Assembly (NCBI GenBank): GCA_002862405.1
Contig: PKCZ01000052.1
Location: 1-34,251, forward strand
Source: Pseudomonadota bacterium
Lineage (GTDB): Bacteria > Pseudomonadota > Gammaproteobacteria > Pseudomonadales > Halieaceae
Reading direction: 5' to 3'
DNA length: 34,251 nt
Shown here: piece by piece, positions 11,222 to 28,417 of the stretch
Layout: the number at the start of each line of letters is the position of its first letter
How positions within the stretch are numbered: position 1 is the first letter of the stretch
Notes under the pieces: model-generated
The model's input: the letters and a program-made list of their open reading frames with translations, nothing else
Told to the model about the DNA's origin: nothing
Databases searched by the model: none
Made by a program: the position numbers and the translations under genes

Positions 11222-14077
11222 ATGTTTCTCACCAATAAGTTTGGCAAGCGGCCCTTATCGCTTGCCGTAGCCGCTGCTATTGCGCCGGCTTTAGCGTCCA
11301 CAGCACTCGCGCAAAACCTTCAGCTTGAGGAAGTTGTCGTTACTGCGACCAAGCGTGCTGAAAACCTTCAAGATGTTCCGATCTCAGTCAATGCCTTGTC
11401 TGGCGATGCCATGCGGTCGCAGAACATTATGACCTTCGATGACTACGTCGAGTTCCTGCCTAACGTCGTGAGCGCTGGTATTGGTCCAGGTCAGAAAGAA
11501 ATTTATATCCGCGGTTCAGCCTCTGAGCAGTCGTCTATTACTGTTGCGCCAGCGCAGGGCTCTGCTCCGGGCGTAGCACTGTACCTCGACGAGATGCCCG
11601 TATCGTTTGGCGCTCGTAACCTAGATGTGTACGCAGCTGACCTTGAGCGTATCGAGGTGCTCTCTGGCCCTCAGGGCACGCTCTTTGGCGCAAGCTCGCA
11701 GTCGGGCAACATGCGTCTCATCACGAACAAGCCTAACCAGGACGAGTTTGAAGCCAGCATTGACTTTGGTATGAGCTCAACGTCGGGCGGCGCGGGCAGT
11801 AATAATGTCGAGGCAATGATCAACATCCCATTGAGCGATCGCGCTGCAGTTCGCTTCGTTGGCTACAGCGATAACCAAGGTGGTTGGATTGACAACGTAT
11901 CGGGCAGCTTTACGCCAAGTGGTGACGTTATAGATCGTAACAACTCGGCCGGTTACGGGCCTTTCTTCAGTGGCTTCCCGCTGACGACAATTCAATCCGC
12001 CTCAAACGCAGATCTTGCCGAGGATGACTGGAACGAAGCCAAGTACAACGGTTTCCGCGTAGCGGCGAGCTACGATTTTAACGACGAGTGGAGTGGCTTG
12101 TTGACTCACATGTCGCAGGAAATCGATGTTGAAGGTTCATTCTTGGTCGACCCAAGCTTGGGTGACGAGAAGTCTATGAAGTTTGCGCCTGAGCACAACC
12201 TCGATGAGTTCGATATTACCACCTGGACCCTCGAAGGCCGACTGGCCAATCTCGACATGGTTTACACCGGTGGTTACATCGATCGTGAAGTCGATGCCAT
12301 CATCGATTACACCCACTACAACAACGGCGGTGGCTACATCACCTACTACCTCTGTAGCGGAAATATCTACTCAGGTGACAAGGCCAATGCAACTAACACA
12401 TGTTTTGACCCCACCAAGCAGTATGCTGATGCTTCAACCAACGAGCGAACTACGCACGAGATCCGTTTCAGCAGTGACCCAGACAACCGTCTGCGCTGGA
12501 TGGCAGGTGTGTATATGAGCGATGTCGACACTACGCACGTTGGTGAATTTCAATATATGTCGACCAATGACGCATTCAGCGAGCACATTGTTAACTATTT
12601 TGGGTCAGGCGCTCCGTTCGAAGTTGGAAACACAACGATTCCTAATACGGCAGGTACAAATACCGTAGGCCCACGAAGCCCACTGACAACCTTCTATAAT
12701 GATTACACGCGAACTGAGGAAGAGACCGCGTTCTTTGGTGAAGTTGCATTGGATCTCACCGACGATCTAACAATTTCATTGAGTGCTCGACGTTATGATC
12801 TCAAGTCGCAGCTACAAGGCGCTTCAAACTTCTCGTTTGGCTGTCGCTATGGCGCGCCATTCACCGATCGTGACACACCTGCAGGCGCGGGCTTCGGTAA
12901 TGCTGAAGTCACACCTGATGGCCGCTGTAACAGTAACGCCTTCAGTAACGACGTAACGTCACGTCTTCTAACATTGGGGGCCTACGCTGCATCGGGTGAT
13001 GACAACATCATCTTGAACGCAACCAGCCCTAATGGTGCGCGCGACATGTTCCGAGGTGGTGGTAGCAACGCAGCCACATTGGCCGCGATCCAGAACGGCA
13101 ACCTGGATATCGGTGATATCTCTGCTGACGGATCAACGGAAGAAGAGGACACAATCGTTCGACTGTCTCTGAACTACAACCTGTCCAATGATGTGATGGT
13201 TTACGGTATCTACTCAGAGGGCTATCGCCCAGCGACACAGAACCGTAACGCAGGCCAGTTGGCAGCAAACCAGAGCGGCGTATACGAGGGTTATGTGGTA
13301 CCAGCAGTAGCGGTCACCGATACACTCGAGAACATCGAGTTTGGTATGAAGGGTGAGTTCCTCGATCGTACATTGCGATTGAATGCAAGCTTTTACATGA
13401 CCGAGATCACTGACCTACAAGTATCTCGTTTTGACCCATCAAACGTAGCGTTCCTCGTCTTCATGGAGAACGTTGGTGATGCAGAGTCAAACGGCATCGA
13501 TGTGGATTTCCAATGGGCTGCCGGCAGCAACCTGTTGATTTCAGGTGCTGCCAGCTTCCTCGATACGGAAATCACTCGTCTGAACCCCCAGCTGCAGGGT
13601 GTTGCGGTTCCTGTTGGATCAGAGTTACCTCTGGCACCTCGCTTCTCGGGTAACGTTCGCGTCCGCTACGACTACGAAGTGCCCAGCATGGCCGCCAATG
13701 GCTACGTAACAGCTGCACTAGTACATCGTGGTGAATCGGTAGCTGGCATCGTAGGTAGTGCGGCCTTTATGGATGACACAGGTGTTCTCGCCTATGGCGC
13801 TTCATCTGGTCTGGGCCTGCAGAACGAGGGTGGTACGTTTGGTACGGTTAATGACCGTACTGGAAACCTTCCAGCAAACACCCGTTTTGTTAACGAGTCT
13901 GCAACCATGATCAACCTGAGCGCTGGTCTTGAGAAGGACAACTGGCTCGCTGAGGTCTACGTTCGTAACCTCACAAGTGAAGAAGGTGCGATCGTGCAAA
14001 CGGCAGGTAAATTTACGCCTGAAGCTACGATCAACCGACCCAGAACGCTTGGTTTGAGGCTCTCTTACCGCTTCTGA
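11222..14077 (+). CDS. TonB-dependent receptor
   Basis: 951 aa: signal region, LEEVVVTATKRAENLQDVPISVNALSG (TonB box and plug), LERIEVLSGPQGTLFGASSQSGNMRLITNKP, C-terminal INRPRTLGLRLSYRF. Confidence 0.95.
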   Translation: MFLTNKFGKRPLSLAVAAAIAPALASTALAQNLQLEEVVVTATKRAENLQDVPISVNALSGDAMRSQNIMTFDDYVEFLPNVVSAGIGPGQKEIYIRGSASEQSSITVAPAQGSAPGVALYLDEMPVSFGARNLDVYAADLERIEVLSGPQGTLFGASSQSGNMRLITNKPNQDEFEASIDFGMSSTSGGAGSNNVEAMINIPLSDRAAVRFVGYSDNQGGWIDNVSGSFTPSGDVIDRNNSAGYGPFFSGFPLTTIQSASNADLAEDDWNEAKYNGFRVAASYDFNDEWSGLLTHMSQEIDVEGSFLVDPSLGDEKSMKFAPEHNLDEFDITTWTLEGRLANLDMVYTGGYIDREVDAIIDYTHYNNGGGYITYYLCSGNIYSGDKANATNTCFDPTKQYADASTNERTTHEIRFSSDPDNRLRWMAGVYMSDVDTTHVGEFQYMSTNDAFSEHIVNYFGSGAPFEVGNTTIPNTAGTNTVGPRSPLTTFYNDYTRTEEETAFFGEVALDLTDDLTISLSARRYDLKSQLQGASNFSFGCRYGAPFTDRDTPAGAGFGNAEVTPDGRCNSNAFSNDVTSRLLTLGAYAASGDDNIILNATSPNGARDMFRGGGSNAATLAAIQNGNLDIGDISADGSTEEEDTIVRLSLNYNLSNDVMVYGIYSEGYRPATQNRNAGQLAANQSGVYEGYVVPAVAVTDTLENIEFGMKGEFLDRTLRLNASFYMTEITDLQVSRFDPSNVAFLVFMENVGDAESNGIDVDFQWAAGSNLLISGAASFLDTEITRLNPQLQGVAVPVGSELPLAPRFSGNVRVRYDYEVPSMAANGYVTAALVHRGESVAGIVGSAAFMDDTGVLAYGASSGLGLQNEGGTFGTVNDRTGNLPANTRFVNESATMINLSAGLEKDNWLAEVYVRNLTSEEGAIVQTAGKFTPEATINRPRTLGLRLSYRF

Positions 14078-14157: not shown

Positions 14158-16155
14158 GTGATTGCAGAGTCGATTCAACAAGCCCGTGTAGCCATGGGCA
14201 AGCGAGCCTTTAGCGAGTCTCGAGCCTTACTCAGCGAAGCGCTCACCGCTGAGCCAGACAACTTTGAAGCACGCTACACCCTTGCGGTATTAGAACGCGC
14301 AGAGGGTAATCACGATAAAGCGCTAGAACTCCTGACTGCTCTGACAGCAGAAAAGTCCGACTTTGGCAGGGGCTTTCAAGAGATGGGCTTGTGCGAGCTT
14401 GCTTTAAAGCGAGAGCAAAAAGCAGTATCTGCGTTCGAGGAGGCTGTGGATCGAGATGGATCTCTGATTGATAGCTGGAAGTTCATCACTGCCTACTACC
14501 GACGAACGGGCGATCCTCGAGCTGAACAGGCAGGTAAACAGGTCGAATTTCTTGCCGCGCTCCCCGGTGAACTGCGGACCGTAATTAGCTATCTTGCAGC
14601 TAATCGACTCGGCGATGCGGAGCGTCTTTGCCGCTACTTCATGCAGCAGAACAAAACACATGTTGAAGGCATGCGTTTGATGGCTGAGATCGCTACTCGA
14701 ACAGGTGTATTCGACGACGCGGAATTCCTCCTCGAAACGGTCATGGAGCTTGAGCCCGAGCACTACGACGCTGAAATCCAGCTGACTCATGTTCTGCTCA
14801 GACGCCAGCGGTTTCATAAGGCGCACTTGCGTGCGAAGTCGATGTACCAACGTTTAGATAATCCTCCTCAACAAGTGCAGGCGCTCTACGCGTCGGTCTG
14901 TTTTGGTGTCGGTGAGAACGAAGAGGCTATTCGGGTGTATCAAGAGATGATCCGCACGATGCCAAAAGACCCTGCACTTCGGGTTTCGCTCGCACACATC
15001 TACAACGCGACCGGCGAATCCCATCGCGCTATCGACCTTTTCAAGCAGGCTTATGACTTGAACCCAAGTTTTGGCGATGCCTTTTGGAGCTTGGCAAACA
15101 CCAAGTCCTATCGCTTCACTGAGGATGAAGTCAACGCGATGACTGAAAGTTTGAGTGGCGATAACACTCCCGAGCTCGACCGTATTCAAATGCACTTTGC
15201 TCTCGGGAAGGCGCATGAAGACAGTAAAAATTTTATGGCCGCGTTTGAGAACTATCAACAAGGAAACGCACTAAAGCTTGCGGTATCGAATCACAGCCGT
15301 GAGCAGCTCGACATCCGCGTCTCTACTCAAATAGATGTCTGCAAAGCCTCATTGTTTGATCGCCTAGGCGATGTAGGCCATGCCGCACCGGACCCTATCT
15401 TTATTGTCGGATTGCCTCGTGCGGGCTCAACCCTGCTAGAGCAAATACTCGCATCGCATTCACAAGTGGATGGCACGATGGAGTTGCACGACATTCTCGA
15501 TCTGGCGAAGCGATTGCGCGGCCGAGACAAGGCGGGCGACCCTAGCCCTCGCTATCCGCGTATTTTGGGCGAGCTTCCCACAGAGCGGTTTGAACAATTC
15601 GGCAAGCAATTTATCGAGGACACGCGCGCTTACCGAGGCGCTGCACCGCGTTTTATCGACAAGATGCCAAATAACTTTTTCCACGTGGGGCTCATCAAAC
15701 TCATCCTTCCCAATGCGAAAGTAATCGATGCACGACGACACCCCATGGCGTGTTGCTTTAGCGGTTACAAACAGTTGTTTGGTGAGGGTCAGGAGTTCTC
15801 CTACGGCTTGGAGGAGATAGGTAACTACTACAAGCAGTACGTTGATCTCATGAATCATTGGAATGAGGTATTACCCGGCTTTGTTTTGCGCGTTCAACAT
15901 GAGGATGTCATCGACGACCTCGAGACTCAGGTACGGCGCATTCTGGACTTCTGTGGGCTCGAATTTGAGGAGTCCTGCGTGGAGTTTCACAAGACGAAAC
16001 GCACCGTAAGAACACCCAGTGCGGAGCAAGTTCGCCAGCCCATCAATACCTCAGGCGTCGACCAATGGCGTAACTTTGAGGAATACCTTGACCCACTAAA
16101 ACGTGCTCTCGGCCCCGAGCTATTGAATACCTATGGGATAGATCCTCCTCGATGA
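14158..16155 (+). CDS. TPR-repeat protein with C-terminal PAPS-type sulfotransferase domain
   Basis: 665 aa, GTG start. N-terminal TPR-like helices (FEARYTLAVLERAEGNHDKALELL, DPALRVSLAHIYNATGESHRAIDLFKQAYDLNPSFGDAFWSLA), then PIFIVGLPRAGSTLLEQILASHSQVDGTMEL, FIDKMPNNFFHVGLIKLILPNAKVIDARRHPMACCFSGYKQLF. Confidence 0.92.
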   Translation: MIAESIQQARVAMGKRAFSESRALLSEALTAEPDNFEARYTLAVLERAEGNHDKALELLTALTAEKSDFGRGFQEMGLCELALKREQKAVSAFEEAVDRDGSLIDSWKFITAYYRRTGDPRAEQAGKQVEFLAALPGELRTVISYLAANRLGDAERLCRYFMQQNKTHVEGMRLMAEIATRTGVFDDAEFLLETVMELEPEHYDAEIQLTHVLLRRQRFHKAHLRAKSMYQRLDNPPQQVQALYASVCFGVGENEEAIRVYQEMIRTMPKDPALRVSLAHIYNATGESHRAIDLFKQAYDLNPSFGDAFWSLANTKSYRFTEDEVNAMTESLSGDNTPELDRIQMHFALGKAHEDSKNFMAAFENYQQGNALKLAVSNHSREQLDIRVSTQIDVCKASLFDRLGDVGHAAPDPIFIVGLPRAGSTLLEQILASHSQVDGTMELHDILDLAKRLRGRDKAGDPSPRYPRILGELPTERFEQFGKQFIEDTRAYRGAAPRFIDKMPNNFFHVGLIKLILPNAKVIDARRHPMACCFSGYKQLFGEGQEFSYGLEEIGNYYKQYVDLMNHWNEVLPGFVLRVQHEDVIDDLETQVRRILDFCGLEFEESCVEFHKTKRTVRTPSAEQVRQPINTSGVDQWRNFEEYLDPLKRALGPELLNTYGIDPPR

Positions 16156-22443: not shown

Positions 22444-23271
22444 ATGTCCAAACTCACAGCCATCACATCGGATTTTGCCAGAGCCATTGAGTATCTGGGT
22501 ACAGAACATTTTGTCCCCACGATCGCGGACGTGCTTTGTGGCCTTATCAATGCTGACGACGCCACCGTCATTGTCTACGGTCATGAGGAACTGCCGACCA
22601 TTAGCTTCGCAAGGCCATTAGCCGGCAAGGAAGAAAGCTCACTTGCCACTTACCTTACGGGGCCTTTCTTACTAGACCCGTTCTATCGCGCTGCGGCCTA
22701 CGATCAGCAGTTTGGTGTTTTTCGCCTTGCTGACCTCGCGCCCGCGAGTTTCCGGAGCTCAGAGTATTACAAGAACTGGTACAAACACTGTGGCTATGAG
22801 GACGAATGCGGGTTGCTCATCCGTGTTGCCAACGAGAACTTTATCAATATCTCTATTGGTCTTACATCCGAAGGGGCCCGCTTCAGAGTTGGGCAAGCAA
22901 AGCTACTCGCGAGTATTTACGAGCTGACGGCCTCACTCTGCCGGCGACACTTCTTAGAGGTGCAGGAAGCGCAAAAGAAAACGACACTGCGAGAGCGCAT
23001 GCATCGATCGCTTACAGCGTTTGGTGGCAGTGTACTGACCCGCCGAGAGAGACAGGTTGTCGAACTGGTCCTGCTTGGCCATAACACCCGCTTAATTGCC
23101 GAGAAACTCGGCATCTCGATCGAAACGGTAAAGCTGCATCGGAAGCATGCTTATGCCAAATTGGATATCAGTTCTCAGGCAGAGCTCTTCTTTCTATTCA
23201 TGGAAGCGCTGTCCCACTGGTCAGGTGATCCTGATACCGACCCGCTCATTGCCTATCAAGGAGGCCAGTGA
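22444..23271 (+). CDS. LuxR-family HTH transcriptional regulator with N-terminal sensor-like domain
   Basis: C-terminal LTRRERQVVELVLLGHNTRLIAEKLGISIETVKLHRKHAYAKLDISSQAELFFLF is a GerE/LuxR HTH. Confidence 0.9.
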   Translation: MSKLTAITSDFARAIEYLGTEHFVPTIADVLCGLINADDATVIVYGHEELPTISFARPLAGKEESSLATYLTGPFLLDPFYRAAAYDQQFGVFRLADLAPASFRSSEYYKNWYKHCGYEDECGLLIRVANENFINISIGLTSEGARFRVGQAKLLASIYELTASLCRRHFLEVQEAQKKTTLRERMHRSLTAFGGSVLTRRERQVVELVLLGHNTRLIAEKLGISIETVKLHRKHAYAKLDISSQAELFFLFMEALSHWSGDPDTDPLIAYQGGQ

Positions 23272-24845
23272 TTTTGACTGAACTCTCGTTGGGTGATGGT
23301 TTTGCGGCACTCAATCGCGGCGACCTCGCCACCGCTGGCGAGGCCTGCAAACAAGCCTTGGCCGCCAATCAAAAGCACGTGCCTGCGCATTTCCTCGTGG
23401 GTCTGGTGGCTTTAGAAGGCAAACAGCGTCAAGTCGCACACGAAGCGTTTAAATCGGTTGTTAAGCTAGACCGCGATCATGCGGCTGCCTGGGCCCACCT
23501 CGCAAAACTCAATGTGGGTGAAGGCAGAATCGCGGCGGCTGAGTCGGCACTGCGTGAAGTCCGCAGAATTCAGCCCAGCGATCCTATGGTGATTGAGCTG
23601 ACCGGTACCGTGCTCAACTCGCTCGGTGAGTACGAAGCCGCCGAGCTCTTTTTTGAGCGCGCGCACCAGATGGTACCGCAAAGCCCGTCCGCGCTAATGA
23701 ACCTTGGCAATGTTCGAGTCTTCCTTGGAAAGATTGAGGCGGCGGTTGCCCTCTTTAAGCGCGCCATCGAACTCGAACCCAACAGTGCGCAATGTCACTG
23801 GGGACTGGCCAATTCAGAAAAAGCAAAAAACGACAGCCACATAAAGACCATGCAGGGGTTGATCGATTCTGGGCGGCAATCGAAACGGTCGCAGGGCTTT
23901 CTATATTACGCCATAGGCAAAGAAAATGAGGATTTAGGCAACTGGATTGATGCCTTCTCCGCCTTCAGTCAGGGTGCGCAGGCCCGACGCGAAACCGTCG
24001 AATTCAGCGAGGCCGATGAAGCGGCCATGTTTGCGGCCATCAAAGAGACTTACACAGCGGAGTGGTTAGCTGGTGCCACGCCCGGTGCTGAAGACCCAGC
24101 ACCTATTTTCGTCTTGGGCCAGCCACGGACCGGAACAACACTGATAGAGCGAGTCATCACCAGCCACTCACAGGTGTATTCCGCGGGCGAGTTACAACAA
24201 TTTGGTCTCGCAGTTCGGCGAGCTTCGCGGTTCGCTGATCCAAAACGGTTTTCTAAAGAACTGTTTCTTACCGCGTCGACAGTTAATCCCGCAGAGATTG
24301 GACATATGTACCTACGATCAACAGCGAAGCTTAGAGATAAAAGCCCCTTCTTCGTGGATAAGCTACCGGTCAATTACCTCAACATCCCACTTATTTTGGC
24401 TGCCCTTCCCAAGGCAAAGATTATTCATCTTGTTAGAGGTCCAATGGACGCATGCTTCGCAAGCTTCAAGCAGTTATTCGCGGATGCGTACCTGCACTCC
24501 TACGACCAATGCGAGATGGCACGCCATCATGCTCGCTATCGCGATTTGATGGCGCATTTTCGACATGAGTTCCCCGGACGCATTATCGATATCAGCTACG
24601 AAGCGGCGGCGCGAGACCTTGAACCCAACGCAAGAAAGCTTATTGGCGCCCTTAAACTCCCATGGGAAGACGCCTGCCTTAACTTTCACGAGAGTACATC
24701 CGGTGTCGCCACCGCGAGTTCGGTGCAAGTCCGTGAGCCCGCGCATACCCGATCCATCGGTCGCTGGCGTCGGTACGAAACTGAGCTTTCACCCATGATG
24801 AACGAGCTGACGCGACTCGGGGTACCCCTTGAGGGGGTTCCCTGA
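23268..24845 (+). CDS. TPR-repeat protein with C-terminal sulfotransferase domain
   Basis: GTG start overlaps the luxR stop (GTGA). TPR-like repeats, then PIFVLGQPRTGTTLIERVITSHSQVYSAGELQQFG, FVDKLPVNYLNIPLILAALPKAKIIHLVRGPMDACFASFKQLF, C-term STSGVATASSVQVREPAHTRSIGRWRRYE. Confidence 0.93.
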   Translation: MILTELSLGDGFAALNRGDLATAGEACKQALAANQKHVPAHFLVGLVALEGKQRQVAHEAFKSVVKLDRDHAAAWAHLAKLNVGEGRIAAAESALREVRRIQPSDPMVIELTGTVLNSLGEYEAAELFFERAHQMVPQSPSALMNLGNVRVFLGKIEAAVALFKRAIELEPNSAQCHWGLANSEKAKNDSHIKTMQGLIDSGRQSKRSQGFLYYAIGKENEDLGNWIDAFSAFSQGAQARRETVEFSEADEAAMFAAIKETYTAEWLAGATPGAEDPAPIFVLGQPRTGTTLIERVITSHSQVYSAGELQQFGLAVRRASRFADPKRFSKELFLTASTVNPAEIGHMYLRSTAKLRDKSPFFVDKLPVNYLNIPLILAALPKAKIIHLVRGPMDACFASFKQLFADAYLHSYDQCEMARHHARYRDLMAHFRHEFPGRIIDISYEAAARDLEPNARKLIGALKLPWEDACLNFHESTSGVATASSVQVREPAHTRSIGRWRRYETELSPMMNELTRLGVPLEGVP

Positions 24846-24876
24846 GATTAGGTCAGGAGTATACTGCGCGGGTGCA

Positions 24877-24897
24877 AAAGAAGCGTGAAGCTTCTTT
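24877..24897. other. Intergenic hairpin AAAGAAGC-GTGAA-GCTTCTTT
   Basis: 8-bp perfect stem with a 5-nt loop between the TPR-sulfotransferase and TBDR; no clean T run follows on the plus strand. Confidence 0.5.
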
Positions 24898-24966
24898 ATA
24901 AAAAACGAGCAGGGAGGCCGATAAATAGCCATACCAGACTGCTCCAACCCATATGAGGAAATCACT

Positions 24967-27348
24967 ATGGCAAAGGTATTCGGGGCCAAACCCAATGCGC
25001 GACTTATTTTGCCGCTAGCTGTCTCGGCGGCTTTAGTTGGCACGAAACCCGCCGTCGCCCAAACCCTTGAAGAGGTTGTTGTTACCGCGACTAAGCGGGA
25101 GCAGGGCGTCATGGATGTCCCGCTAGCTATTACAGCGCTTTCGGGCGACTTCATCGAAGATACAAACCTCAACGACGTCAAGGATCTGATTTCCTACACC
25201 CCTGGTGTGAGCGGTAACTCTCAAGACTCCTACATCGATGCGGTTAGTATCCGCGGTGTTAGAACGCAGGACTTCGGTGTTGGCGGCGATCCATCGTCGG
25301 CATTCTTCAAGAACGACCTCTACGAGGGTCGTAACGGTTCAGCGGTTACTAGTCTCTTTGATATTGAGCGTGCCGAGGTGCTACGTGGACCACAGGGCTT
25401 CCTGTTCGGTCGCAACTCGATCGGCGGTGCATTTAGTGTCCACACTCGCGAAGCTGAGATTGGGGCCGATGATGCCTACATGGATCTGGACTTTGGTCAG
25501 CGTGGTCACTTTGTATTTGAGGGCGCAACCAACATTCCGGTCAACGAAAGCTTTGCAATGCGTCTTTCGGGCTACTCCTCTAGCGAGCGCGGATTCGCGA
25601 AAAACGTGGCGACAAATCGTCGTGAAATTGAACACAGCAAGATGGCTGTACGTTGGTCTACCGCCTACGAGGGTGACCGCTTGTCCATCAATACGGTTGT
25701 CGACTACGAAGACAGAGAGCAGTCTGGTTCCATGTACCGCGCAATTGATAGCGGCGATATCTGGGATGCGTTTGACGGCTATATCGTTGATGACACCACA
25801 TTAGATGGCACGAGCGAGCAAATCGACTCTGACCTCGAGGCGGGCGAAGATGATGACGGCAACTTGCTGACCATCGGCGTCTTCGTTGACTACGATCTGG
25901 GCTTCGCGACCTTGACCTCTAACACGGGCTACAAGGACCACGATTACTACTACTCAGAAGATTACGACGGTACACCTCTCAACATCAACAACTTCCAGTT
26001 CCGTCAATCGGGCCAATACTTCCAGCAGGAGCTGCGCCTGACCGGCAGTGACGAAGGTCCTCTCGGCTGGTACGCAGGTGTTTCGTACTATGACGAGGAC
26101 CTTGACGCCGAGTTTGCCGCGATTGGTTCTGAAGATCTGATGTGTCAGTACTACTTGAACTACTACGCCGAGTATTACGGCTACGAGTTTTACAGCGGTT
26201 GCTCCGATTACTACACCGACTTCTACCCGAGTGCCGACGGCAATCTGGTTGAGACCGGCATGCTCAAGGGCAAGTACAGCGGTTGGGCAGCGTATCTCAG
26301 TATGGATACTGACATCAGCGAGACACTCAATGTTGAAGTGGGTGTGCGCTACACTAGCGATGACAAAGACTTTGGCATCCTTGTCCCCGAGCCCGAGAGC
26401 TATTTAGGGCCCTACTTCACCTATGGTTTTGCGACCGCCGAGTACATCGAAGACTCAAAGTCATGGAGTGATACCACAGCAAAAGTTGCGCTGACGTGGA
26501 CTCCTACTAATGACGCTATGGTATTCGCTAACTATACCCAAGGCTTCAAGTCAGGTGGCTTTGGTAGCTTCTGGATCCAAAATGACCAAGGCAACCCGCC
26601 TGCCTATGAGACAGGTATTACGCAGGGAGATGGCTACTTGCCCGGCTCATTTAGACCGGAGCAGATGGACTCTTACGAGCTAGGATTCAAAACAAGCTAC
26701 CTAGACGGTGCCGGTAACTTTGACATCGTCGCTTTCATGTATGACTACAAAGATGCACAGGTCATCAGCTACGTCGATGTCGACTTTGAAGACGATGGCG
26801 TGACAGACGCCTTCTCGGGTCGCGTGTTGAACGTTGGCCAAACCGATGGCTTCGGTGTCGAAGCGTCAACCACTGTCGCCATGAGCGAGAACACCACCTT
26901 GTATCTCTCGGTGGGTTATCTCGATACAGAAGCGACAGGTCTCTCGGAGATCTGTGGCGCTGATGGTGCCGTCGAGGGCGATGGCCTTGGTTGTGAAGGT
27001 AGCCGTGTTTTCTGGGCACCTGAAGTCACGGCCGCAGGTAAGCTCGACATCGACTTCCCCATGCAAAACGGCATGATCAAGAGCAGCATAGAAGTGTCTT
27101 ATGAAAGTGAGCGCGGCGGCAGCTGGGAAGGCAATCCAGAAGGCATGATTGATGCCTACGCTGTGACTAACTTGCGTATTGGCTACGAATCAAACGACAA
27201 CTGGTACATCCAGGCCTACGCTGAAAACCTGCTCGATGAGTTCACATGGGATGGCTACAACGCGAACGGCGGAATTTTGCCATCGCACTTCTTTGGCCCC
27301 ATGCGCCCAAGAACCTTCGGCATCCGAACAGGAATTAGCTGGTACTAA
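24967..27348 (+). CDS. TonB-dependent receptor with Tyr-rich segments
   Basis: 793 aa: QTLEEVVVTATKREQGVMDVPLAITALSG, IERAEVLRGPQGFLFGRNSIGGAFSVHTRE, C-term MRPRTFGIRTGISWY; SD GAGGAAAT upstream. Confidence 0.95.
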   Translation: MAKVFGAKPNARLILPLAVSAALVGTKPAVAQTLEEVVVTATKREQGVMDVPLAITALSGDFIEDTNLNDVKDLISYTPGVSGNSQDSYIDAVSIRGVRTQDFGVGGDPSSAFFKNDLYEGRNGSAVTSLFDIERAEVLRGPQGFLFGRNSIGGAFSVHTREAEIGADDAYMDLDFGQRGHFVFEGATNIPVNESFAMRLSGYSSSERGFAKNVATNRREIEHSKMAVRWSTAYEGDRLSINTVVDYEDREQSGSMYRAIDSGDIWDAFDGYIVDDTTLDGTSEQIDSDLEAGEDDDGNLLTIGVFVDYDLGFATLTSNTGYKDHDYYYSEDYDGTPLNINNFQFRQSGQYFQQELRLTGSDEGPLGWYAGVSYYDEDLDAEFAAIGSEDLMCQYYLNYYAEYYGYEFYSGCSDYYTDFYPSADGNLVETGMLKGKYSGWAAYLSMDTDISETLNVEVGVRYTSDDKDFGILVPEPESYLGPYFTYGFATAEYIEDSKSWSDTTAKVALTWTPTNDAMVFANYTQGFKSGGFGSFWIQNDQGNPPAYETGITQGDGYLPGSFRPEQMDSYELGFKTSYLDGAGNFDIVAFMYDYKDAQVISYVDVDFEDDGVTDAFSGRVLNVGQTDGFGVEASTTVAMSENTTLYLSVGYLDTEATGLSEICGADGAVEGDGLGCEGSRVFWAPEVTAAGKLDIDFPMQNGMIKSSIEVSYESERGGSWEGNPEGMIDAYAVTNLRIGYESNDNWYIQAYAENLLDEFTWDGYNANGGILPSHFFGPMRPRTFGIRTGISWY

Positions 27349-27368: not shown

Positions 27369-27923
27369 CTACCACTCGGCCAGCAAACCTTCTCGGTGCG
27401 CTGGCCGAGACGTTTTTGGAGACAGCCAAATTGCAATAAAAGCGGGAGCGAAATCGGGATCTTCCACGCTACCAACCCAGCTTCCGTTGTAGAAAAAACG
27501 GCTGACGCCTTGCTCGTCGACATCAAACGCAATCTTGTCGCCCTTTTTGACATCTGGCCACATAGCCAAGACCGCTGCTTCCCACTCCGATCGTCGAGGG
27601 TCATCAAACTCCAGATAATCCCACTCCTTCGCTGTCTGCTTTGCCAGAAAACTGCCGGAGATATTACGTTGATATGTGAGTTCAAACCTGAACGAGTGAC
27701 GGGGGTCATCCCACTGACCGGTTTTAGTGAATAGCTTGGAATTGAAGACCTTAAAAAATGCGACTCGCAACTGGGAGCTTCCCACAAGCGTAAGCGGTCG
27801 CGCTTGCTCTAGGGTCAGCACCTTAGAGGCATAAGGTGCGTGCTCAAGGTCTTCAGTTTGGCTCAGCCCTACAAGCGGGATGCTGCAGACACAAAAGAAT
27901 AGTAGTACTCGAGCCACCGGCAT
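27369..27923 (-). CDS. Chalcone isomerase-like (CHASH domain) exported protein
   Basis: MPVARVLLFFCVCSIPLVGLSQ signal; LVGSSQLRVAFFKVFNSKLFTKTGQW...FELTYQRNISG...KGDKIAFDVDEQGVSRFFYNGSWVGSVEDPDFAPAFIAIWLSPKTSRP. Start overlaps the upstream stop (TAATG). Confidence 0.8.
   Translation of the reverse strand: MPVARVLLFFCVCSIPLVGLSQTEDLEHAPYASKVLTLEQARPLTLVGSSQLRVAFFKVFNSKLFTKTGQWDDPRHSFRFELTYQRNISGSFLAKQTAKEWDYLEFDDPRRSEWEAAVLAMWPDVKKGDKIAFDVDEQGVSRFFYNGSWVGSVEDPDFAPAFIAIWLSPKTSRPAHREGLLAEW
27375..27417 (+). terminator. Rho-independent terminator of TBDR, inside the 3' end of the convergent gene
   Basis: CTCGGCCAGC (27375-27384) pairs with GCTGGCCGAG (27400-27409), then ACGTTTTT. Confidence 0.75.
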
Positions 27924-28417
27924 TAAGCTGCTGCAAGCTCCCGCTGACTGAACTTCACCATTAGTGGCAGCATCACCATCCACAGCGGCACCAGAATTAG
28001 CATCGTAGTGACATCACCCAGCGGCAATGTGACTGCACCGAACTTGGCACCAGCCAAATAGTTGGCAGGGGCGATCGCGCCCAAAACAATGGGACGCCAG
28101 CGACTCTCAGACAAAAACGCCATGGCTCTCGGCAGCGCCGTTGGAAAAACGAGCCAAAGGCACACCATCCACAGTGGAAACAGCGGCGCACCGAAATCAT
28201 AAACACCGGTCATCGCCAGGGTGAAATCAACACCAATACCTAGCGCCGCACACGGCAGCACTCGATTCAGTTCGGAGCGAATATCGGCGACCGCCGCGTA
28301 ATGGAACGCTATGAGCGCGAACGTCAGTAACATCCAGTCCTCTCTACCAAGGACGCAGCTAAACCAGGTGGTCTGGAACCACACGGCGTTAAACCAGGTT
28401 TTTTCTATCAACGTCAT
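27923..28417 (-). CDS. DUF2878-like integral membrane protein
   Basis: 164 aa, multiple hydrophobic helices, NAVWFQTTWFSCVLG start and GVYDFGAPLFPLWMVCLWLVFPTAL core. Confidence 0.75.
   Translation of the reverse strand: MTLIEKTWFNAVWFQTTWFSCVLGREDWMLLTFALIAFHYAAVADIRSELNRVLPCAALGIGVDFTLAMTGVYDFGAPLFPLWMVCLWLVFPTALPRAMAFLSESRWRPIVLGAIAPANYLAGAKFGAVTLPLGDVTTMLILVPLWMVMLPLMVKFSQRELAAA

Follow-up and report, generated by a model that had tools for sequence, protein, structure and literature searches.

Most of what is documented on tyrosine sulfation in bacteria concerns RaxX, and bacterial TPST has been described as sparse (PMC9372746). In Xanthomonas the gene for RaxST, a cytoplasmic TPST-like sulfotransferase, adjoins that of the secreted RaxX (PMC9372746, PMC6637879), and RaxST modifies its substrate before secretion (PMC9372746). 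The gene pair described here resembles RaxST and RaxX in that a bacterial, putatively cytoplasmic, TPST-like enzyme is encoded beside an exported protein, and differs in what is exported: RaxX is a small peptide secreted by an exporter of its own, whereas the partner here is an outer-membrane TonB-dependent receptor (TBDR). Neither a small peptide substrate nor dedicated exporter genes were found beside the enzyme, the neighbours of which are a LuxR regulator and the TBDR, and no relation to plant immunity was seen. To our knowledge, RaxST has no TPR part.

By both sequence and fold, the closest solved catalytic domain belongs to the metazoan Golgi enzymes TPST1 and TPST2, in which the 5'-PSB Arg and the Glu base are likewise conserved. 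TPST1 and TPST2 have a membrane anchor, whereas the enzyme studied here is prokaryotic, carries an N-terminal TPR superhelix and has apparently one partner gene where TPST1 and TPST2 have many substrates. OGT and SPINDLY, the nucleocytoplasmic protein glycosyltransferases, likewise combine a TPR superhelix with a transferase domain; those transfer sugars whereas this is a PAPS sulfotransferase, which would work like them but is not a member of their group. The receptor, with its plug and beta-barrel, is a TBDR like FyuA, PiuA, Fiu and FhuA, but differs from them in its linked sulfotransferase and in a loop 5 that is rich in Tyr and bracketed by Cys. We know of no sulfated TBDR, and in the open-access literature no paper on the pairing of TBDRs with sulfotransferases or on TBDR sulfation was found.

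The enzyme and receptor genes

Within the window (the whole stretch of 34,251 nucleotides that was analysed) three genes follow one another on the + strand: a LuxR/GerE-type transcription regulator (22444-23271; GerE PF00196, E 3.7e-14), the N-terminal part of which has no Pfam match; a TPR-sulfotransferase of 525 aa (23268-24845), the proposed protein-tyrosine sulfotransferase; and a TBDR (24967-27348; Plug E 3.7e-16, barrel E 1.6e-28), the proposed substrate. The 3' end of the regulator gene overlaps the start of the sulfotransferase gene by 4 bp, the gap from the sulfotransferase to the TBDR is 121 bp, and a promoter scan gave no convincing internal promoter. At 28 of 39 orthologous loci a LuxR-type homolog lies upstream of the sulfotransferase. 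On the - strand, 3' of the TBDR (27369-28417), are chalcone isomerase-like and DUF2878 genes, which recur at roughly half of the orthologous loci. The original prediction had described the gene directly 5' of the TBDR as encoding a TPR part and a PAPS sulfotransferase domain, and the domain search confirmed this, with matches to TPR families and to Sulfotransfer_3 (PF13469, E 1.2e-42). It had included neither the LuxR-type gene, nor a second TBDR/TPR-sulfotransferase pair in the window, nor the presence of a TBDR beside all four TPR-sulfotransferases of the genome.

The Sulfotransfer_3 domain spans aa 279-468 (24102-24671, + strand). Arg287 of its PRTGTT motif (24126-24128), conserved in 45/45 sequences, aligns with the 5'-PSB Arg of the TPST motif PRSGTT, and Glu308 (24189-24191), also conserved in 45/45, aligns with the second Glu of TPST GEE, which we take, from TPST2, to be the catalytic base. 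A published description of the TPST motifs was also used in assigning this Glu (PMC9372746). The DKxP motif keeps its Lys in 44/45. In the AF2 model of the enzyme (pLDDT 88) the solved sulfotransferases nearest by fold are tick and human TPST, and the TPR part resembles OGT and SPINDLY; when the sulfotransferase domain was searched by sequence against solved structures, the best matches were again TPST. The enzyme thus shows the PAPS sulfotransferase fold, the 5'-PSB Arg and the Glu base that characterize TPST. It has no evident signal or anchor and would be cytoplasmic, and the genome encodes an APS kinase for PAPS.

The AF2 model of the TBDR (pLDDT 72, pTM 0.79), built from an alignment of 71 homologs from which orthologs of the window TBDR were left out, matches FyuA, PiuA, FhuA and further solved TBDRs, with short turns and long loops alternating along the barrel. 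In the receptor frame, SEDLMCQYYLNYYAEYYGYEFYSGCSDYYTDFYPSADG at 26128-26241 has 11 Tyr in 38 residues, and a Tyr-rich segment with 11 Tyr, proposed earlier at 26131-26240, is therefore real with a shift of a few bases. The segment falls in loop 5 (aa 388-426; 26128-26244, + strand), a long loop that connects strands 366-387 and 427-449 of the predicted structure, and contains Cys393 (26143) and Cys412 (26200). By counting back from the C-terminal strand, residues 388-426 are predicted to be extracellular, with low confidence in the loop blocks (means about 48-68); a buried or periplasmic position, which would have spoken against the original prediction, was not obtained. When the receptor's own residues, 6.8% of them Tyr, were shuffled, only 9 of 5000 shuffles reached at least 11 Tyr in a 38-aa window, and a chance origin of the cluster is therefore unlikely. 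A second segment that had been counted as part of the signal, GYKDHDYYYSEDYDG (25927-25971, + strand; strand plus loop 4), did not hold up as a sulfotransferase-linked feature and was rejected, as it is retained, and is about equally Tyr-rich, in homologs without a linked sulfotransferase.

Loop tyrosine and gene linkage

The genome to which the window belongs has only four TPR-sulfotransferases. Two are in the window, each beside a TBDR; the third (contig C15) comes after a TBDR; and the fourth is on contig C113, the first 405 bases of which encode a TBDR C-terminus. The gene of that TBDR breaks off on C146, the last 149 bases of which align at 92.6% with the first 149 of C113. With the C146/C113 overlap taken as one locus, the TBDRs beside the four enzymes are the top four of 25 when ranked by Tyr clustering, an outcome expected once in 12650 if ranks were random; the receptor at 24967-27348 is rank 2. 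The C113 locus also encodes a conserved protein of ~310 aa with no Pfam match (L039:448-1395), located between the TPR-sulfotransferase and a convergent Tyr-rich TBDR, and homologs of it were found at L224, L231, L232, L241, L244 and L222. Six relatives have TBDR, ~310-aa gene and sulfotransferase together, as in this type of locus.

Four control genomes (the window's own, G006, G053 and G118, Erythrobacter sp. NAP1) provided 112 TBDRs, taken from stretches around TBDRs. For unlinked TBDRs (n=98, with the contig-break case L049 left out) the maximum number of Tyr per 38 aa had a median of 5 and never exceeded 7, and most linked TBDRs had 8-12. At least 8 Tyr per 38 aa were counted in ten receptors: nine have a TPR-sulfotransferase as neighbour, and the remaining one (L049) runs into a contig break that overlaps a sulfotransferase contig. 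Of the linked TBDRs in G053, three reach 6 Tyr or fewer; two of these neighbour short sulfotransferase paralogs, and the third neighbours a weaker match of 464 aa. A further G053 receptor carries a DYTGY loop and is located ~3 kb away from a TPR-sulfotransferase.

Co-occurrence of the two genes in relatives, which had been put forward as a check, was found across genus and family. In these genomes, which are partly incomplete MAGs, receptor and enzyme mostly either occur together or are both missing; apparent single-gene cases lie at contig ends, and G069 has both genes on different contigs. The loop sequence of linked orthologs varies between genera while its Tyr-richness stays (CQYYLNYYAEYYGYEFYSGC, CQYYYNSYYDEVYYFNPAYETC, YCNVYWGDSCEGVFDYYNNAYDGAYAYVLYDYWGTY). 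Receptors of the same subfamily that have no linked sulfotransferase also exist, about 30-40% identical, and retain the ED..C...C loop, so that the same loop could be compared in both classes. After removal of duplicates, the Cys-bracketed loop held 7-14 Tyr in all linked members (47/47) and 1-4 Tyr in 19/21 of the unlinked ones, nearly all of which had 1-2 (e.g. CRAIAMTDAGDFDSSLGPVTDC); at a cut-off of at least 5 loop Tyr, linked members were 47 rich and 0 poor and unlinked members 2 rich and 19 poor. Both unlinked Tyr-rich exceptions carry a cognate sulfotransferase elsewhere in the genome (G069:C40 and G206:C1:464454). Linkage and loop Tyr are associated with a Fisher p of 6e-15, computed over rows that are related by descent. 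In a tree built without the loop there are only two Tyr switches, each coinciding with linkage and together too few for significance, and an independent-pairs comparison on the subfamily tree yields 4 pairs only, which gives it no statistical power. The two linked TBDR clades, both with a Tyr-rich loop 5, use different sulfotransferase clades, located on opposite sides of the receptor, and four genomes (G066, G171, G198 and G318) each have one linked Tyr-rich copy and one unlinked Tyr-poor copy; because of these two observations the pattern goes beyond shared ancestry. That homologs without a linked enzyme keep the Cys-bracketed loop and lose its Tyr lends support, from sequence comparison, to the earlier reading of the loop as a possible substrate of the sulfotransferase.

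The enrichment is specific to Tyr. Linked loops are composed of 24.2% Y, 5.2% F, 1.1% W and 0.3% K+R, and unlinked loops of 2.4% Y, 6.2% F, 2.4% W and 2.2% K+R; there is no increase in Phe or Trp, and basic residues are almost gone. TPST prefers Tyr with nearby Asp or Glu (PMC6272617, PMC9372746). An Asp or Glu lies within 5 residues of 438 of the 521 linked-loop Tyr, and the loop has the acidic Tyr context without basic neighbours of a TPST substrate, but an acidic residue at -1 is present in only 81/521. Among genus orthologs the loop was 85-100% identical in 5 of 9 comparisons where the barrel was 65-80% identical, and changes in its Tyr codons were mostly synonymous, suggesting that selection acts on Tyr content. 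Loop identity is 68-78% in L106, L114 and L115 and 57% in the more distant L119, and these loops are still Tyr-rich.

The second pair and the DY[TS]xY receptors

The second pair in the window consists of a TBDR (11222-14077, + strand) and its partner, a long TPR-sulfotransferase of 665 aa (14158-16155, + strand), both identified by domain search. A wider scan, seeded with nine TPR-sulfotransferases and using one genome per species, retained 80 loci by sulfotransferase similarity only; these are the loci nearest to the enzyme at 14158-16155 and thus represent one broad clade. They come from Halieaceae, Colwellia, Alteromonas, Arenicella, Woeseia, SAR86, Sphingomonadales, Hyphomonadaceae and others. 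For 80 of the 84 sulfotransferases in these nearest loci a TBDR lies directly upstream on the same strand, with a median gap of 82 bp. Numbered as in the receptor at 11222, Y348, D362-Y363, Y366, Y376, C378 and C394 are common to 96-100% of 70 TBDRs. Most of these residues belong to the loop motif DYTHYNNGGGYITYYLC...C (aa 362-394; 12305-12403, + strand), in which, over the 70 homologs, the Asp is found in 99%, the three Tyr in 100% each and the two Cys in 96% each. DY[TS]xY is near-invariant in this family from Halieaceae to Sphingomonadales, and it places Asp at -1, the position that TPST favours (PMC9372746). In the four control genomes DY[TS]xY was found at the loop position only in receptors near a TPR-sulfotransferase; one other match lies further along the barrel. 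Judged from the alignment, the segment would form the loop that precedes the Tyr-rich one of the receptor at 24967.

In a Woeseiaceae genome (L174:5471-9953) the TBDR immediately upstream of the TPR-sulfotransferase is not Tyr-rich, with a maximum of 3 per 38 aa, and breaks the pattern seen with the long enzymes. In a bog gammaproteobacterium (L184:3258-12659) a TBDR, two sulfotransferases and a further TBDR stand in tandem on one strand. The TBDRs that neighbour short TPR-sulfotransferase paralogs outside the window clade (L213-L230) have 4-7 Tyr per 38 aa (one has 9), just above controls. A rule by which every TPR-sulfotransferase has a Tyr-rich neighbour was consequently rejected, and the acceptor of the short paralogs may differ.

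Proposed receptor sulfation before export

The gene pairing, the Tyr enrichment that follows linkage, the predicted extracellular position of the loop, the TPST-like fold and catalytic residues and the PAPS supply were all obtained by computation. We consider it likely that the putative cytoplasmic protein-tyrosine TPR-sulfotransferase sulfates several Tyr of the extracellular loop of its partner TBDR before export. The TPR superhelix would hold the unfolded receptor chain while the sulfotransferase, acting as a cytoplasmic protein-tyrosine sulfotransferase, transfers sulfate from PAPS to several Tyr, the presumed acceptors, of one loop. Sulfation would precede Sec export of the unfolded receptor, much as RaxST acts before secretion, and the loop may then be closed by a disulfide between its two Cys. 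The mature receptor would display a Cys-bracketed, strongly acidic sulfotyrosine cluster at the cell surface, which probably binds cargo or a partner, cargo binding being the simplest guess.

An alternative that we regard as unlikely is that the enzyme sulfates a ligand, a small molecule or a glycan, that the receptor binds or imports, with the Tyr-rich loop as the ligand-binding site. Aromatic TBDR loops often bind cargo, and a tight, operon-like pairing with an uptake receptor would also suit a ligand-making enzyme. A loop that is acidic and has 0.3% K+R would however be a poor site for sulfated anions, it is Tyr and not Phe or Trp that is enriched, the nearest solved enzymes are protein-tyrosine and not small-molecule sulfotransferases, and the TPR part resembles the protein-modifying OGT and SPINDLY. 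Less probable still is that the Tyr-rich loop marks a receptor subfamily for a hydrophobic or aromatic ligand, next to which the sulfotransferase, acting on another residue type or surface protein, is simply inherited. The few independent switches on the tree fit such inheritance, as do the Tyr-poor receptors beside short paralogs, but the pattern recurs in two receptor families that are distant from each other, as well as in two clades of sulfotransferase and three arrangements of the genes, paralogs within one genome differ as predicted, and Phe and Trp show no rise. That Tyr-richness and gene proximity are a coincidence or composition effect is very improbable, since, even though TBDR loops are aromatic-rich in general and this protein is itself rich in Tyr, the four-genome controls and the shuffles speak against it and the same-loop homologs contradict it.

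Returning to sulfation of the receptor itself, we lean towards the broader view that in many Alpha- and Gammaproteobacteria each TPR-fused Tyr sulfotransferase has a partner TBDR in which it modifies one dedicated extracellular loop, a widespread surface-receptor sulfation for which at least two clades of enzyme and two receptor loops have been recruited. The presence of a Tyr-rich surface loop only together with the enzyme suggests sulfate decoration of receptors, in marine Proteobacteria a widespread and so far undescribed one. The prediction is directly testable in cultured relatives. If it is true, large numbers of annotated TPR-sulfotransferases would gain a substrate class, and an overlooked post-translational modification would be added to outer-membrane receptors, with possible consequences for ligand binding and for whatever else docks there.
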